Of a stretch of DNA of 64,000 nucleotides, positions 265 to 6,704 are shown piece by piece (within the stretch, counting starts at the first letter, position 1; every line of letters starts with the position of its first letter). The DNA lies in the NCBI GenBank assembly GCA_903955385.1, contig CAJBNH010000193.1:1-64000 (forward strand). Reading direction: 5' to 3'. Both the position numbers and the translations under genes were made by a program. The notes beneath the pieces were generated by a model. The model made no database searches, was not told the DNA's origin, and saw only the letters and a list, made by a program, of their open reading frames with translations. This DNA is from an uncultured Myxococcales bacterium (lineage in GTDB: Bacteria; Myxococcota_A; UBA9042).

Positions 265-1194
265 GTGCTCGTTCACCTGCTCACCGCCAGCGCCTGCCCG
301 CACGTCGACTCGCCGCTGGTCTGCCCGGTGTGCGAGGTGCGGGGACCGCAGGCACGGCAAACGCCTGAGGTCGACGCCGACCGCCTCGCCGCTTGGCTGC
401 GACAGACCCGCGACGTGGGGGCCAGCCGCGCCACGTTGCGCGACGGCGACCTGCTGACGCGGCCCGAGGCGCTGGAACTTCTTGAGCTGACTCAGCAACT
501 CGCCTTCAACGCGGTGGAGGTCTGGACGAGCGGCCTCGCGTTGGTGCGGCCCGAGTCGGTCGCTCGGGTGCGGGAGGCTGGTGCGACCCACGTGGCAGTG
601 CCGCTGTACGGTGACTCGGCCGAGGCGCACGACCTCGTGACCGCGCACGAAGGTCACTTTCAGCGTGTGATCAGGGGCTTGCGAACGGCCCGTGCGGCAG
701 GGCTGCGGACTACGGTGCTGGCCCCCGTGCTGCGGCCCACGTTTCGCCAGCTGCCCCGGCTGGTCGCGGGCGCGCTGTCGCTGGGAGCGAGCGCAGTGCG
801 GTTCTCGCTGGCCGAGACGGACGACCGCGAGGCCCACCCGCTGCTGCCGCACCCCGGGCTGGCGGCGCCGTTCGTCCGGGCGGCGGTGCGTCAGGCAAGG
901 ACTGCCGGTCTGCGTGCCACAACCGCCGGCATCCCCCCGTGTCTGTTGGAGGATCTGGCGACGACAGCGTGGCGCCCACCGCCGTGGACGGTCGATGCGC
1001 GGGCGACCGGCGTGGCCGGCGAGGTCCAGGGGCCTGCCGCAGCGCCGCCCGGCCAGCACGGCCGCCCCTGTCAGACCTGTACGTGGCGCGACCTGTGTGC
1101 CGGGGTGGCACCGCCTGTGGTCGCGCGACACGGCTGGGGGTGGGTGGTGCCGCGCGACGACGCCCCACCGGCGCGAAAAGACGCCGTGGAATAG
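265..1194 (+). CDS. Radical-SAM-fold protein with aberrant N-terminal cysteine spacing (309 aa)
   Basis: First gene of a five-gene operon. The GTG at 265 is chosen because upstream in-frame codons run into lspA antisense and because a CGGAG lies just before it; an ATG at 31 is possible but unlikely. The middle of the protein reads like a radical SAM partial TIM barrel: a glycine/acid motif LRDGDLL in place of GGE, a VWTSG strand, and later VLAPVLRP. The usual CX3CX2C cluster motif is absent. Instead Cys11, Cys20 and Cys23 give CX8CX2C. Near the C-terminus CQTCTWRDLC gives CX2CX5C, a SPASM/twitch-type auxiliary-cluster motif that recurs in the next two genes. It may be an active variant, a divergent non-catalytic partner, or a protein holding only auxiliary clusters. 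Function unknown. Confidence 0.6.
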   Translation: MLVHLLTASACPHVDSPLVCPVCEVRGPQARQTPEVDADRLAAWLRQTRDVGASRATLRDGDLLTRPEALELLELTQQLAFNAVEVWTSGLALVRPESVARVREAGATHVAVPLYGDSAEAHDLVTAHEGHFQRVIRGLRTARAAGLRTTVLAPVLRPTFRQLPRLVAGALSLGASAVRFSLAETDDREAHPLLPHPGLAAPFVRAAVRQARTAGLRATTAGIPPCLLEDLATTAWRPPPWTVDARATGVAGEVQGPAAAPPGQHGRPCQTCTWRDLCAGVAPPVVARHGWGWVVPRDDAPPARKDAVE

Positions 1195-1270
1195 CGCCTT
1201 GCGATGCCCGGCTGCACCCGTGCCACAGATCTGCCAGACTTCGGCCCCTTGCCCACCGGAGCGTTTCGCC

Positions 1271-3196
1271 TTGTCCTCCCCGCCCGACACCGACACCCTT
1301 GACCGCGAGATGCAACGGCTCGTGACGCAAGGCGTTCTTTCGCGCGACGAGGCCGCGGCGCTGCTCGACGCCACCCGCTCTGGGCAGTCCCGCAGCGAGG
1401 CCCTGCCGTCGGGCATGGACGACAAGGACCGCGTCAAGGAGCAGGCGGCCCGCGACAAGCGCCACTGGGTCCGCACCACACGCGTCTGCAACCAACGCTG
1501 CACGTTCTGCCTTGACTCGATGAACCAGGACGGCACGCGCATCGAAACGGCGGCGCTGAAGACCTACATCGCGCTGGGGCGTCGGCTGGGTCGGGAGCGT
1601 CTGATCCTGTCGGGCGGCGAGGCGACGGTCCACCCGGAATTCCTCGAGCTCGTGCGTTATGGCCGCGAGGTCGGCTACGACTGGATCCAGGTGGTGACCA
1701 ACGGAATGATGTTCTCGTACAAGGGGTTCGCTCGCGCAGCGGCGAGGGCGGGCCTGAACGAGGCGACCGTTTCGATGCACGGCCACACGGCCCAGCTGCA
1801 CGACAAGCTGACGGGCACCCCAAGCGCGTTCGTCACGGGGCTGCAGGGCATCCGCAACTTGCAGGCGACGGGTCAGGTCGTCGTGAACATCGACATCGTG
1901 CTGAACAAGCAGAATTACCGTGTGCTGCCCGAGATGCTGGCGTTTTGGTTCGGCCACGGCATCCGCGAGTTCGACTTGCTGCATCTGGTGCCATTCGGTC
2001 GCGGCTTCGACGAGCACCGGGCGTCGCTATTCTTCGACCTGAACGACGCCGTGCCCTATTTCCGCCGGGCGTTTGCCTGGGCCGACCAGCCGGGCGTGTA
2101 CCTTTGGACCAACCGGATGCCTGTGACCTATCTGGAGGGTTTCGAGCGCCTGATCCAGGAACCCCACAAGCTGCAATCGGAATTCGACGGCGGTCGGCAC
2201 AACTTCGAGGGCTGGTTGCGCACCGGCGTCAAGCCCGACTGCTGGGGAGAACGGTGCGACTACTGTTTTCTCGAGGGTCCCTGCCGCGCAACGCTGCTGC
2301 CGTACCGCGAGCGGCTGCTGCAGGGCGAATTCGCGTCGGTGCGGGTCGACAGCCGTCTCGCATGGCCGGGCGACGCTGCGCAACGGGCATTCCGGTCCCA
2401 GCGGCCGACACGGCTGCGGGTGACGGCACCGGACGCGACGACGGCGACCGAAACGTTGAAAGATCTGGCGTTTCCCCTTGCGCGACGGGATGTTGCGCTG
2501 GCAGACGGAGCAGACCCGACGGCGCTGCTGGGCCAAGCCGATCGCTTCGTGGTGTCGACCCTCGCCCAAGCCCACGCGTACCTGCTGGGTGCCCCCGCGC
2601 TGCCCGCAGACGTCGAGATTGAGGTCGCGTTGACCCGTGAGCTGGCCGGGTGGCTGCTGGACCACCCAGAGGTCTGTCGGGCTCGCGGCCACCGCCTGAT
2701 CGCTGCGCTGCAAACCCACGAGTTCCGCAGCGGGGTGGTCGACCACGACCCGGATCCCCAGATGCTGCAACGACTTGCCCAAGCTGGCGTGCGTCTCAAG
2801 GCGGTGCCGCGCTGCATCGCGGGGGCCGAGGTCGAGCCAGCCGACCGCCCCCACCTCGACGCGGCGCTGCTGGACGGCGCGGGCCACCTCGATCTGGACC
2901 GATTCGTCCACCACTACATCGTCCACGAATACCGCGTGAAGTCGCTGCGCTGTGTCCGGTGCGCAGAGGTTGACCACTGCGACGGGCTGCACATCAACTA
3001 CCTGCGCGAGCACGGGTTTGGCGTGATGATGCCGCAGGACGCCGACGGCCGCCCCCTGTCCGACGCGACGTCGTTCGAGACCCTGACCGAGGCGCTGCGT
3101 GAAACCAACGCCCGCCGCAGCCGGGAAGACCTCAAGCGGCTGGTGGGGCGACACCGTCCCGAGGCACGGGCACAAGACGACGCACCCGAAGTCTAG
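1271..3196 (+). CDS. Radical SAM protein with two auxiliary-cluster-like motifs (about 641 aa)
   Basis: Radical SAM enzymes cleave S-adenosylmethionine at a [4Fe-4S] cluster to make a 5'-deoxyadenosyl radical. The canonical CX3CX2C is present as CNQRCTFC, followed by the GGE motif (SGGEATVHPEF). Two further cysteine groups follow: CWGERCDYCFLEGPC (CX4CX2CX5C) and, near the C-terminus, CVRCAEVDHCDG (CX2CX5C), typical of SPASM/twitch auxiliary clusters in peptide-modifying enzymes. Between them lies an unrecognised domain of roughly 200 residues. The start is uncertain: TTG at 1271 has GGAG nine bases upstream, while ATG at 1310 would give 628 aa. The gene follows the first by 76 bases and precedes the third by 13. 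Its partner is probably the HxsD-like proteins downstream; substrate not identified. Confidence 0.75.
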   Translation: MSSPPDTDTLDREMQRLVTQGVLSRDEAAALLDATRSGQSRSEALPSGMDDKDRVKEQAARDKRHWVRTTRVCNQRCTFCLDSMNQDGTRIETAALKTYIALGRRLGRERLILSGGEATVHPEFLELVRYGREVGYDWIQVVTNGMMFSYKGFARAAARAGLNEATVSMHGHTAQLHDKLTGTPSAFVTGLQGIRNLQATGQVVVNIDIVLNKQNYRVLPEMLAFWFGHGIREFDLLHLVPFGRGFDEHRASLFFDLNDAVPYFRRAFAWADQPGVYLWTNRMPVTYLEGFERLIQEPHKLQSEFDGGRHNFEGWLRTGVKPDCWGERCDYCFLEGPCRATLLPYRERLLQGEFASVRVDSRLAWPGDAAQRAFRSQRPTRLRVTAPDATTATETLKDLAFPLARRDVALADGADPTALLGQADRFVVSTLAQAHAYLLGAPALPADVEIEVALTRELAGWLLDHPEVCRARGHRLIAALQTHEFRSGVVDHDPDPQMLQRLAQAGVRLKAVPRCIAGAEVEPADRPHLDAALLDGAGHLDLDRFVHHYIVHEYRVKSLRCVRCAEVDHCDGLHINYLREHGFGVMMPQDADGRPLSDATSFETLTEALRETNARRSREDLKRLVGRHRPEARAQDDAPEV

Positions 3197-3209
3197 TGGA
3201 GTTCAACGC

Positions 3210-4373
3210 TTGGCCAATCTCGGCTACATCCAGATGGTGCGGCACTGCAACCAGAACTGCGGATTCTGCTCGAATCCGGAGACGCCATTCTTTTACGATC
3301 TCGAGCAGTACCGCACGATCATCGACGACTTTGCCGCGCGCGGTTACTTCGGCGTGATCCTGACGGGCGGCGAGCCGACGCTGTCGCCGGTGCTGCCCGA
3401 AGCCATCGCCTACGCGAGGTCGCGCGATCTGCATGTCCGCCTGATCACCAACGGTCAGAAGATGGCCGATGCCGTATATACAAAAACTTTGATGGACGCA
3501 GGGTTGCAGCACGTTCACCTGAGCCTGCACACCCACCGCGCCAAGGTCGAGGACTTCCTGACCGGCACGCCCGGGTCGCTGCGCTGGGCTGAACAGGCGC
3601 TGGATCACTTGGGCGCTTCTCCGGTCGTGGTGAACCTGAACACGGTGATCAACCGCTACAATTGCGACCACCTGCACGAGACTGTCGACTGGATGATCGA
3701 CCGGTTTCCCTTCATCCGTCACGTCGTCTGGAACAACCTGGACCCCAGCATCGGCCGCGCGACCGCCAACACCTTCTTCACGGCGAGGTTGGGCGATCTC
3801 GAATACAGTCTTGCCCTTGCGATGCGCCGCCTGCACGACAGCGGCCGCACCTTTCGGGTCGAGCGCGTGCCGCTTTGCTACATGACCGACTTCGCCCACT
3901 GCTCGACCGAGACGCGCAAGATCGTCAAGGGTGAGGAGCGGATCGTGCACTTTCTGGACGACAAGGGCACCGTGCGCCAGACCGCTTGGGGCCACCTGTA
4001 CGCCGACGTGTGCACGACCTGCTCGCTGCGCCTGATCTGCGGCGGCCTGTTCGACCGCGGCGACGCCTACGACCCGGCCGAGCTGTCGCCCGTCTATCTC
4101 GACCCGCGCCCCATCGTGCAGCGCATCGTGCAAGACGAAGCCAGCGACCCGTCGTGGCGGCCGGATCCCGCCCGTCTGGCCCAGTTGGTCCCCGCCGCCG
4201 CGCCGCGGCCCGCGCACCCCAGCGCCCCCAATGGCAGTCGTCTGGTGCAGCCCAGCACCGACCCACGCCGCCGCCACGACCCAGAAGCCCGCGACTGGCA
4301 ACCCACCGCCGAGACTGCGAAAGACACCTCGGTGGATGAGGGCGCGCTTGCTGGCCCGCGACGCCCGGGGTAG
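3210..4373 (+). CDS. Radical SAM/SPASM-type protein, HxsC/HxsB-like (387 aa)
   Basis: The N-terminus carries CX3CX2C (CNQNCGFC, Cys13, 17 and 20) and GGEPTLSP. The C-terminal part has an isolated Cys pair (CYMTDFAHC) and CTTCSLRLICGG, a CX2CX5C auxiliary motif. A TTG start at 3210 is selected: GGAG lies eight bases upstream and the translation then begins nine codons before the cluster motif, as is usual. The longer frame from 3099 would overlap the preceding gene by almost 100 bases. Gap to the preceding stop is 13 bases and to the next gene 34, so the genes are probably cotranscribed. The next two genes encode HxsD-like proteins, so by analogy with the His-Xaa-Ser system (two radical SAM enzymes plus HxsD acting on the repeat peptide HxsA) this is likely a peptide- or protein-modifying enzyme. 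That role is inferred. Confidence 0.75.
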   Translation: MANLGYIQMVRHCNQNCGFCSNPETPFFYDLEQYRTIIDDFAARGYFGVILTGGEPTLSPVLPEAIAYARSRDLHVRLITNGQKMADAVYTKTLMDAGLQHVHLSLHTHRAKVEDFLTGTPGSLRWAEQALDHLGASPVVVNLNTVINRYNCDHLHETVDWMIDRFPFIRHVVWNNLDPSIGRATANTFFTARLGDLEYSLALAMRRLHDSGRTFRVERVPLCYMTDFAHCSTETRKIVKGEERIVHFLDDKGTVRQTAWGHLYADVCTTCSLRLICGGLFDRGDAYDPAELSPVYLDPRPIVQRIVQDEASDPSWRPDPARLAQLVPAAAPRPAHPSAPNGSRLVQPSTDPRRRHDPEARDWQPTAETAKDTSVDEGALAGPRRPG

Positions 4374-4407
4374 AAGCCGCGCACCACTGATCGACCCCAG
4401 GAGCCCC

Positions 4408-4866
4408 ATGACCTCGCCCGAGCTCGAGCATTTCGACCCCGCCAAGGGCCAGATGACGCTGTCGCTGGATGCCGGCCTGTACCCGATCGAGGTGCTGTAC
4501 GGGGCGGCCTTCGTGCTGCTGGACCGCGCGTATGTGCTGCTGGACCGCGACGGCGAGGAAGGGCGCAACAGCCGCTATCTGGTGCACCTGCGCGCCAAGT
4601 CGCCCCTGGACGAGGCGGGGCTGCGCGCACTTGCGGGAGAATTCGGCAACGAGCTGCTGACCCAGGCGCTGCGGCGGCTGATCGTCAAGCAGAACGGCAA
4701 CTTGATCGAGGACATCACCACCCGCGCCTTGGCCGGGGCCGCGGGCGGCTCGGCGCCGGTCGACTTTCTGGAGGATGACGACGGTCTGGACTTTCTGGAC
4801 GACCCGCTGGGGATCGCCGTGCCTTGGGAGGAGAAATACCCCAAGAAGGGCGGAGGCAACCCGTGA
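4408..4866 (+). CDS. HxsD-like small protein with acidic C-terminal tail (152 aa)
   Basis: Residues 1-110 or so resemble HxsD of the His-Xaa-Ser radical SAM system: an LYPIEVLYGAAFVLLDRAY segment, a predicted beta strand ending in RYLVHLRAK, then EFGNELLTQALR, a helical segment usual for this family. The remaining 40 residues are unlike HxsD: a Gly/Ala linker, a repeated acidic stretch (DFLEDDDGLDFLDD) and a Lys/Gly-rich end (KKGGGNP). The ATG is preceded by CAGGAG. The stop overlaps the next start by four bases (GTGA). HxsD proteins are thought to accompany radical SAM maturases, but their exact role is unclear. The tail might be a modified segment or a docking peptide; that is speculation. 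Confidence 0.7.
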   Translation: MTSPELEHFDPAKGQMTLSLDAGLYPIEVLYGAAFVLLDRAYVLLDRDGEEGRNSRYLVHLRAKSPLDEAGLRALAGEFGNELLTQALRRLIVKQNGNLIEDITTRALAGAAGGSAPVDFLEDDDGLDFLDDPLGIAVPWEEKYPKKGGGNP

Positions 4867-5096
4867 CCACCGCCACCACCGTGCGCCTGCACAAGGCGTT
4901 GTACCTGCCCGCGGCGATTCAACAGGCTGCGGAGGACTTCAAGGACTTCGCCAAGTTCCACGTCGAGCTGGACGGTGATCACCACGTCGTGACCTTGACC
5001 GATCCGGACCCTGAGGCCGACGGCGACATCGCCGCCGAGTTCTGCAACTTCGCGTTGGCCCACACCGCCGCCCGCAAGCGTCGCAAGCCCGGCTGA
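4863..5096 (+). CDS. Second, minimal HxsD-like protein (77 aa)
   Basis: Starts with GTG inside the stop of the preceding gene (GTGA overlap), so translation is probably coupled. It aligns by eye with the previous protein across the whole HxsD core: LYLPAAIQQAAEDFKDFAK corresponds to LYPIEVLYGAAFVLLDRAY, then an acidic DGD turn, a VVTLTDPDP strand, and AAEFCNFALAHTA aligned with AGEFGNELLTQAL. It lacks the acidic tail and ends in a short basic segment (ARKRRKPG). The pair probably arose by duplication and may form a heterodimer. Too short for confident family assignment without a profile search. Confidence 0.65.
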   Translation: MTTATTVRLHKALYLPAAIQQAAEDFKDFAKFHVELDGDHHVVTLTDPDPEADGDIAAEFCNFALAHTAARKRRKPG

Positions 5097-5259: not shown

Positions 5260-6003
5260 ATGTTGTCGACCCTTCGACCGTCCCGCGTGCTGCTGTGCGT
5301 CTGCGCCGTGTTGTTCGCCCGAACAGCGGCCGCTCAGCCCATGGAACCGCCCCCAGCTGCGCCACTTCCCGCGCAACCGGCAGAAGCGACTCAGCCCCCA
5401 GCACCTCCAACAGCACCCGTCGCCGAACCGCCGCCCGCCGCCCTGCCCCCGGCACCGGCCCCATACCCCGCCTCGTCCGACGGCCCGAGCACCCAGTCGA
5501 ATCTGCACGGGTTGGGCTTCTCAGGCGGCTTCACCACCGGCAGCGGCTTCTCGTACCGCCGCTATTTCGGCGACACCGCAGCGCAGCTCAACGGCATCGC
5601 GATCGTCAGCGACTACGGCAACGACGCGCTGGTGTTCGGCGGCCTGTCCGTGATCCAGTACTTGATGATCTGGCACCAAGCCAGCTCGCGCGGCCTGCTG
5701 CCCAGCGTCACGGCCCTGCGTCTGGTCGGCGGCGCGACGTACTTCTACTCACGGCAGACCAACCTCAATTCCGTGCCCGACCCCTCGTGCGGCATCAACG
5801 AATTCTGCACCTGGATCGACGAGGAAACCGTCTCGACCGACAGACTGTTCGGCTTGGGTGCAGGCATCGGCTTCGAGTTTGGCGCGATCATGCACCCCGG
5901 GTTCTCCGTGAATCTGGACCTGATGCTGACGGCCGCGTTCGACGAGGCCGGACTGTCGTTCATCCTGCCGCTGCCCACCGCGGGCCTGATGTACAGCTGG
6001 TGA
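5260..6003 (+). CDS. Secreted, probable outer-membrane protein, paralogue 1 (247 aa)
   Basis: A Sec signal peptide (residues 1-25, ending AAAQP) is followed by a Pro/Ala-rich linker to about residue 75 and then a repetitive Gly/aromatic domain. That domain contains GFSYRRYFGDTAAQLNGIAI, later GFEFGAIMHPGFSVNLDLML, and ends in MYSW. A C-terminal aromatic residue and alternating hydrophobic strands suggest a small outer-membrane beta barrel. The next gene encodes a clear paralogue with the same landmarks. GCGGAG precedes the ATG by nine bases. Function unknown; placement behind the radical SAM/HxsD operon may or may not be meaningful. Confidence 0.65.
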   Translation: MLSTLRPSRVLLCVCAVLFARTAAAQPMEPPPAAPLPAQPAEATQPPAPPTAPVAEPPPAALPPAPAPYPASSDGPSTQSNLHGLGFSGGFTTGSGFSYRRYFGDTAAQLNGIAIVSDYGNDALVFGGLSVIQYLMIWHQASSRGLLPSVTALRLVGGATYFYSRQTNLNSVPDPSCGINEFCTWIDEETVSTDRLFGLGAGIGFEFGAIMHPGFSVNLDLMLTAAFDEAGLSFILPLPTAGLMYSW

Positions 6004-6053: not shown

Positions 6054-6704
6054 ATGCATTTCACAGCTCGTCTCTCGTGTCTCGCGGTGGTCCTCGCCAC
6101 CGGCCTTGGTGTCCTGACCCCGTTGTCGGCGCACGCGCTGGCCCCCACCACACCGTCGAAGACCGGCATGCTGCGCGGCCATGAGGGGCAGGTGCAGCGC
6201 AACCGCTTCGGCATCGGCCTGACCGGCGGCGTCGACGGCAGCACCGGCTTCGCCTACCGTCAGTACTTCGGCAACTCTGCCTTGCAGGTCAACCTGTTGC
6301 CGATCGTCGCCGACCGCGGCAACTACGTCGCCGTCTTCCTTGGCGCACAGTACATCGACTACATGTTGGTGTGGGCCCAAGGCTCTCGCAGCCGCGCGCT
6401 GGCCCCCTCGACGACCGCGCTGCGTCTGGTGGCCAACACGTCCGTGCACCTCAGCAGCGACGACAGCTCGATGAACATCGACTGCGGAACCGACCCGACG
6501 CCCGAGTGCAAGGCGCTGCAGCAGGTCGGAACCGAGACCACCGCCTACACGTCCGCCGGCGTCGGCTTCGGCTTCGAGTTCGGCGCCGTGCAACGCCCCG
6601 GATTCTCGGTCGCGCTGGACCTTGTGATGACGGCACGGTGGGAAAACACCCGGTTCTACGCGGCCTATCCGCTGCCGCACGCCACGATGATGTATTCCTG
6701 GTAG
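6054..6704 (+). CDS. Secreted, probable outer-membrane protein, paralogue 2 (216 aa)
   Basis: The signal peptide spans about residues 1-29 (cleavage after AHA). The mature part mirrors the preceding protein: GFAYRQYFGNSALQVNLLPI, ALRLV followed by a variable loop with two Cys, then GFGFEFGAVQRPGFSVALDL and a terminal MMYSW. It lacks the Pro-rich linker of its neighbour. The 50-base gap and shared orientation suggest one transcript. The variable loop between the ALRLV and GFEFGA segments contains a Cys pair in both paralogues, possibly a surface loop with a disulfide. No known function recognised. Confidence 0.65.
   Translation: MHFTARLSCLAVVLATGLGVLTPLSAHALAPTTPSKTGMLRGHEGQVQRNRFGIGLTGGVDGSTGFAYRQYFGNSALQVNLLPIVADRGNYVAVFLGAQYIDYMLVWAQGSRSRALAPSTTALRLVANTSVHLSSDDSSMNIDCGTDPTPECKALQQVGTETTAYTSAGVGFGFEFGAVQRPGFSVALDLVMTARWENTRFYAAYPLPHATMMYSW

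Follow-up and report, generated by a model that had tools for sequence, protein, structure and literature searches.

The classical His-Xaa-Ser system, encoded in the order hxsD-hxsB-hxsC-hxsA, was reportedly predicted by Haft and Basu in 2011. On a Klebsiella pneumoniae plasmid (CP067827), the system is composed of four genes, with a single HxsD of 90 amino acids (aa) and a short His-Xaa-Ser run in an HxsA of 211 aa. For HxsB and HxsC as putative maturases, PMC9062424 refers to Haft and Basu (2011). Another group is represented by the families HxsA4 (NF038313), HxsC4 (NF038332) and HxsD-like (NF038315). Here, we describe a five-gene operon, g1 to g5, in a stretch of 64,000 nucleotides (hereafter, the window) from contig CAJBNH010000193.1 of an uncultured Myxococcales bacterium (GCA_903955385.1), and this operon most probably contributes to peptide maturation in a His-Xaa-Ser system of the HxsA4 type, the other parts of which are scattered over the genome.

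With the classical operon, this system shares the HxsD family, HxsB and a His-Xaa-Ser repeat substrate, but it has two HxsD-type proteins, at least five radical S-adenosylmethionine (SAM) enzymes and a long C-terminal His-Xaa-Ser array ending in Trp. A composition unlike that of the classical operon had also been noted in a preliminary description of the window, and the extra radical SAM families and the two HxsD-type proteins bear this out. With the HxsA4/HxsC4/HxsD-like group, the system has in common HxsA4, an HxsD-like protein and HxsB, all over their cut-offs, as well as enzymes of the HxsC4 clade; it differs in the extra enzymes g2 and g3, the pseudo-radical-SAM protein g1, an invariant tail of g4, the distribution over at least five contigs and arrays near 16 units. 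The HxsA4-type His-Xaa-Ser system is known already, now with the probable substrate identified in this genome. New here are the additional enzymes, the (D/E)DPLGIA(V/I)PWE tail, which is invariant in g4, and arrays that keep a length of 16 units in 18 of the 21 complete cases in the family.

Probable substrate and enzymes in the genome

When the window's own assembly was searched for four consecutive His-Xaa-Ser units, a single place was hit (G000:C122:62568-62710). It belongs to the gene for HxsA4 (G000:C122:62409-62717, i.e., L203:9410-9718), a protein of 102 aa that scores 86.9 against NF038313 (cut-off 55) and reads MKKALPKLNRTAADFLSSEEGAISDKQEATLATLGDLSGPEPLFPDAQDMRAE followed by one HCS, by HGS repeated fifteen times and by a closing Trp, which makes 16 His-Xaa-Ser units. 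HxsB is encoded on contig C16 (L072:1501-2976, reverse strand), with a score of 520.8 against TIGR03978 (cut-off 370) and an intact CNHTCQYC motif. Two enzymes of the HxsC4 clade, 89% identical to each other, are encoded on C59 and C145; the better one reaches 183 bits against NF038332 (cut-off 500) and 102 against TIGR03977 (cut-off 268). Their clade (support 99) includes enzymes encoded beside HxsA4 in bacteria of the candidate phyla radiation (CPR), and a CPR member (L100_6) is also under the cut-off. With HxsA4, HxsB and the two HxsC4-clade enzymes on other contigs than the operon, therefore, an HxsA4-type His-Xaa-Ser system appears to be complete in this genome but spread over at least five places, and its maturation genes are not joined with HxsA in one operon of the classical hxsDBCA type.

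The preliminary description had proposed a variant His-Xaa-Ser modification system with an unknown substrate. Its link to the His-Xaa-Ser systems is supported by HxsA4, HxsB and g5, all over their cut-offs, whereas the unknown substrate has to be given up, since the same assembly encodes HxsA4 with its 16 units and HxsA4 is found in 22 of the 22 genomes of the family. The substrate had been missed because the view was limited to 64 kb; indeed, the window has no match to three consecutive His-Xaa-Ser units, in agreement with what had been described. A substrate hidden in the window was accordingly dismissed, given that it is located on another contig. Until HxsA4 turned up, a conserved small gene next to the operon was weighed as the substrate, the candidates being the downstream paralogue pair, the DDPLGIAVPWE tail and, in one genus, a small gene that runs on the opposite strand between g2 and g3.

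The five genes of the operon are encoded on the forward strand and, as described earlier, are spaced by 76, 13, 34 and -4 bases: g1 at 265..1194 (start GTG, 309 aa), g2 at 1271..3196 (start TTG, uncertain; 641 aa), g3 at 3210..4373 (start TTG, 387 aa), g4 at 4408..4866 (start ATG, 152 aa) and g5 at 4863..5096 (start GTG, 77 aa). The operon is real and beyond chance because of its family matches and the orthologous operons in relatives. Proteins g1, g2 and g3 score above the cut-off of the Pfam family Radical_SAM (PF04055; 37, 55 and 67 bits, respectively) and, as had been read from the window before, share CX2CX5C near the C-terminus. While g2 and g3 have the intact CX3CX2C motif (CNQRCTFC and CNQNCGFC, respectively), g1 lacks it and has C-X8-C-X2-C instead. 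In the orthologues of g1, which are present in most loci of the family extending far enough, the N-terminal cysteines are variable and the C-terminal cluster (CQTCTWRDLC in g1) is kept; g1 is therefore best read as a pseudo-radical-SAM protein, in line with the extra, degenerate radical SAM protein of the preliminary description.

Of the two HxsD-type proteins, g5 passes NF038315, “HxsD-like protein” (71.9 bits, cut-off 41), and g4, an HxsD-domain protein with a long C-terminal tail, aligns over the whole domain with HxsD TIGR03976 (41.1 bits, E 1.7e-10), albeit under the cut-off of 50. The pair proposed earlier is thus retained, and the profile search with the HxsB, HxsC and HxsD families that had been suggested gave a mixed outcome, with g5 over its cut-off but g4, g2 and g3 under theirs.

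A further repeat peptide was noticed 127 bp 3' of the window genome's own HxsC4-clade enzyme on C59 (L267:4155-4493 (+); also L248:2383-2841). This 112-aa peptide has a signal-like N-terminus and about six (V/I)Y.E.TKAFAD repeats, matches no NCBIfam family and does not recur next to HxsC4 in the relatives that were inspected; it is a possible second repeat substrate.

Loci and co-occurrence in relatives

Orthologous operons occur in relatives. Among 40 loci retrieved through a match to g5, most have g4-g5 followed, after a short gap or an overlap, by an HxsB-like enzyme of about 500 aa, a gene not found at that position in the window. The g1-g2-g3 trio is placed 5' of g4 in most family loci extending far enough, and in some loci either the contig ends or the trio is split. 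Also, g1 in the window's family occupies the position held by HxsC4 in many genomes of the class, where HxsC4, g2 and g3 adjoin and are separated from HxsD by being on another contig (e.g., G030:C75, G040:C115 and G048:C91). Two genomes of other classes (L215 and L216) have g2, g3, HxsD, HxsD-like, HxsB and HxsA in one cluster, and maturation genes are linked with HxsA in G068, G072 and the CPR relatives.

We then counted co-occurrence over 90 related genomes (in the order both/first only/second only/neither). The presence of g5 agreed with that of a His-Xaa-Ser array in 84 of the 90 genomes (49/2/4/35), g3 with g5 in 86 (49/2/2/37; g3 being in 51 genomes) and g2 with g5 in 86 (48/1/3/38). Of the 38 genomes that belong to other classes, seven have g2, g3 and g5 together, and the other 31 have none of the three. 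The genomes with g3 but without g5, G012 and G051, are only 58% and 68% complete, and several exceptions are bins of 58-82% completeness. Accordingly, g2, g3, g5 and the repeat array co-occur almost perfectly even when unlinked, with Fisher p values of 1e-16 to 1e-20 that are descriptive only, being inflated by shared ancestry.

When the alignment of g4 was scanned against 84,980 genomes, one per species, 88 relatives were hit, with titles naming Myxococcota, Bradymonadales, Patescibacteria, Omnitrophota, Spirochaetes, Elusimicrobia, Desulfobacterales and Woesearchaeota. Most of the 88 come from metagenome bins, and certain titles must be incorrect, such as a Klebsiella label. In 11 of the 88 loci, the core adjoins an HxsA4-like repeat peptide with His-Xaa-Ser units, the sort of conserved repeat gene that the preliminary description had suggested looking for in homologous loci; in Patescibacteria, Omnitrophota and Spirochaetes, the core is often next to a His-Xaa-Ser peptide. 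In Woesearchaeota, g4 was found together with HxsB.

Some other features of these loci were also noticed. Two tandem paralogous secreted proteins, possibly of the outer membrane, are encoded 3' of the operon (window 5260-6003 and 6054-6704), and the same pair comes after HxsB in about eight genomes of the family. HxsB homologues at L037:11174-12673 and L043:528-1913 are degenerate, having lost radical SAM cysteines, in otherwise normal loci. Where the system forms one cluster, a protein of 133-184 aa is encoded just 5' of HxsD (L215:6762-7256, L216:12520-12921 and L152:9420-9974), and two of these have a twin-arginine-like signal.

Proteins related to c-type cytochromes were, furthermore, encountered at several places. 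On C16 of the window's genome (L077:9624-15664, G000:C16), a Crp/Fnr-like regulator comes before the genome's own HxsB, and the starts of two proteins, each with nine CXXCH motifs, are at most about 6 kb away. In one genus (L258, L259 and L264), HxsC4 and a second HxsB share an overlap of 4 bases, with c-type cytochrome proteins encoded around the two; in a different family of the same class (L204:10590-17628 and L205-L208), HxsA4 is directly 5' of ccmE, ccmF, ccmA, ccmB, ccmC and ccmD, as assigned by sequence. A general enrichment of cytochromes near the loci was not found, with only L077 of the 97 gene-called loci having a multi-CXXCH neighbour, and the link to c-type cytochromes is therefore a lead only.

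Enzyme families, the g4 tail and array length

Proteins g1, g2 and g3 all score far under the HxsB and HxsC equivalog cut-offs, and g2 (111 bits against NF038332, cut-off 500) and g3 (90 bits against TIGR03977, cut-off 268) are far under every NCBIfam cut-off. In a radical SAM tree of 97 rows (quick IQ-TREE run with support from the Shimodaira-Hasegawa-like approximate likelihood ratio test, SH-aLRT), g2 falls in a clade (support 100) that includes relatives in Parcubacteria, Spirochaetes, Elusimicrobia and Desulfobacterales, and g3 in another (support 100) with Parcubacteria, Spirochaetes and Desulfobacterales but no Elusimicrobia. The C59 and C145 enzymes are placed in a third, HxsC4-like clade, and the classical HxsC of the Klebsiella plasmid is placed apart from all three. 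Judging from these sequences, g2 and g3 represent two cross-phylum families distinct from HxsC and HxsC4. The CX2CX5C cluster of g3 reads CTTCSLRLIC, and g2 has two such clusters, CVRCAEVDHC and CDYCFLEGPC. The predicted structure of g2 (predicted local distance difference test score, pLDDT, 87) has a radical SAM barrel at residues ~60-310 and is best matched by SkfB, viperin and BlsE (Z about 20-21); the whole-chain structure search matched mainly this barrel, and no new domain was resolved in the C-terminal half.

In g4, the HxsD domain is followed by a variable acidic linker and then by (D/E)DPLGIA(V/I)PWE(E/D)K, which in the window is LDFLDDPLGIAVPWEEKY (4786..4839, forward strand). This tail is absent from the classical HxsD of 90 aa, and no other part of the protein is as well conserved in the 38 loci that were picked by g5 and not by the tail; in the 88 later relatives, which were found using the tail motif, its conservation is partly by selection. 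Exactly one exact copy of the motif per genome was present in 39 of the 90 genomes. The AlphaFold model of g4 (pLDDT 85) is confident at residues 5-111, with the fold b-b-a-b-b-a-a, and of low confidence in the tail, which is probably disordered; the simplest reading of the tail is a docking motif. As the matches of the model listed by Foldseek/VIA are all RPB11/ferredoxin-like folds (Z about 7), possibly a common arrangement, and the model is not a winged helix, g4 is probably not a PqqD-like recognition element. The HxsA leader (DFLSSEEG) was also compared with the g4 tail (DFLDDPLG), and a similarity of the two was rejected by column permutation (p = 0.46).

Of the 21 complete arrays in the window's family, 18 have exactly 16 units, and the others have 12, 12 and 19. 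Arrays of 16 units are also common in another family, where a few have 7, 20 or 32. The serine codons alternate in higher-order DNA patterns of 18 or 27 bases that differ between genomes; the arrays would therefore have turned over while their length came back to 16, which points to selection on array length. One locus (L230, G002:C103) has a tandem pair of HxsA4 genes, the first array being of 19 units and the second of 16.

Proposed role of the operon and its rivals

The identities of the parts, their intactness, their co-occurrence and the physical clustering of most of them in relatives were computed, and we infer the mechanism by analogy with radical-SAM peptide systems. Namely, g4 and g5 would act as a paired adaptor for the leader of HxsA4 (P-x-x-K-K-...-D-F-L-S-x-E-E-G), so that the 16-unit His-Xaa-Ser core with its final Trp is offered to HxsB, HxsC4, g2 and g3. 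These enzymes would then modify the repeats by several radical reactions or by a sequence of them. Protein g1 would serve as a catalytically dead partner, and the flexible, invariant tail of g4 may dock onto one of the enzymes.

Several points weigh against this proposal. Evidence that g2 or g3 acts on HxsA4 comes from co-occurrence, which shared ancestry inflates, and it is unusual for a maturation system that HxsA4 and HxsB are unlinked to the operon. Also, g4 and the genome's own HxsC4-like enzymes score under their cut-offs, the RPB11-like resemblance of g4 is weak, and no characterised His-Xaa-Ser product was met in the literature searched. That g4 pairs with g5, that the tail docks and that g1 acts as a dead partner is what we infer rather than observe.

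In the systems for pyrroloquinoline quinone (PQQ) and mycofactocin, a radical SAM/SPASM enzyme is combined with a small partner and a conserved C-terminal peptide motif; here, in contrast, no PqqD-like winged-helix domain was seen in the g4 model, and a repeat peptide substrate is present. Nonetheless, g1-g3 could process the C-terminal tail of g4 like the precursors of PQQ and mycofactocin, with the HxsD domain as a built-in leader. The conservation of the tail, its C-terminal and disordered nature, its single copy per genome and its reactive Trp, Glu, Lys and Tyr residues would fit this idea, as would one relative with a second, degenerate copy (L064). Nearly all genomes with the HxsD pair, however, also have a His-Xaa-Ser array, so that a separate substrate exists; moreover, the tail is also found in loci where HxsB is the sole neighbouring radical SAM gene, and a docking motif accounts for the same conservation. 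We hence regard the tail as an improbable substrate of g1-g3. A broader speculation, which we consider unlikely, is that either radical SAM enzymes act on the tail itself, which is kept across Myxococcota, Patescibacteria and Woesearchaeota, or the system as a whole yields a widespread peptide, with a redox function or one in handling metal or haem, that consists of about 16 modified His-Gly-Ser units and is tied to c-type cytochromes.

There is only a slim chance that g1-g3 serve another pathway and accompany the His-Xaa-Ser system by common descent. While g2-g3 in class genomes are often on a contig apart from HxsD/HxsA and the trio scores far under the HxsB/HxsC cut-offs, the co-occurrence of g2 and g3 with an HxsD-like gene in other classes is perfect (7/7 vs 0/31), the two are encoded in the HxsD/HxsB cluster in Parcubacteria, Desulfobacterales, Spirochaetes and other Myxococcota, and the unlinked piece in the class includes HxsC4. 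An ordinary His-Xaa-Ser operon, in which g2 and g3 are merely diverged HxsB and HxsC, is very improbable; their closest profiles are indeed those of HxsC/HxsC4, but the genome has a separate HxsB over its cut-off and two HxsC4-clade enzymes, and g2 and g3 form clades of their own.

Taken as a part of the HxsA4 maturation machinery, the operon leads to a near-complete parts list of the system: HxsA4, HxsB, HxsC4, two radical SAM families, a pseudo-enzyme and two HxsD-type proteins. This variant is near-universal in one family of Myxococcota and shared with candidate-phylum bacteria, and its g4-HxsB core is shared also with archaea. The array of 16 units ending in Trp and the invariant tail on the adaptor, furthermore, set constraints on what the product would be.

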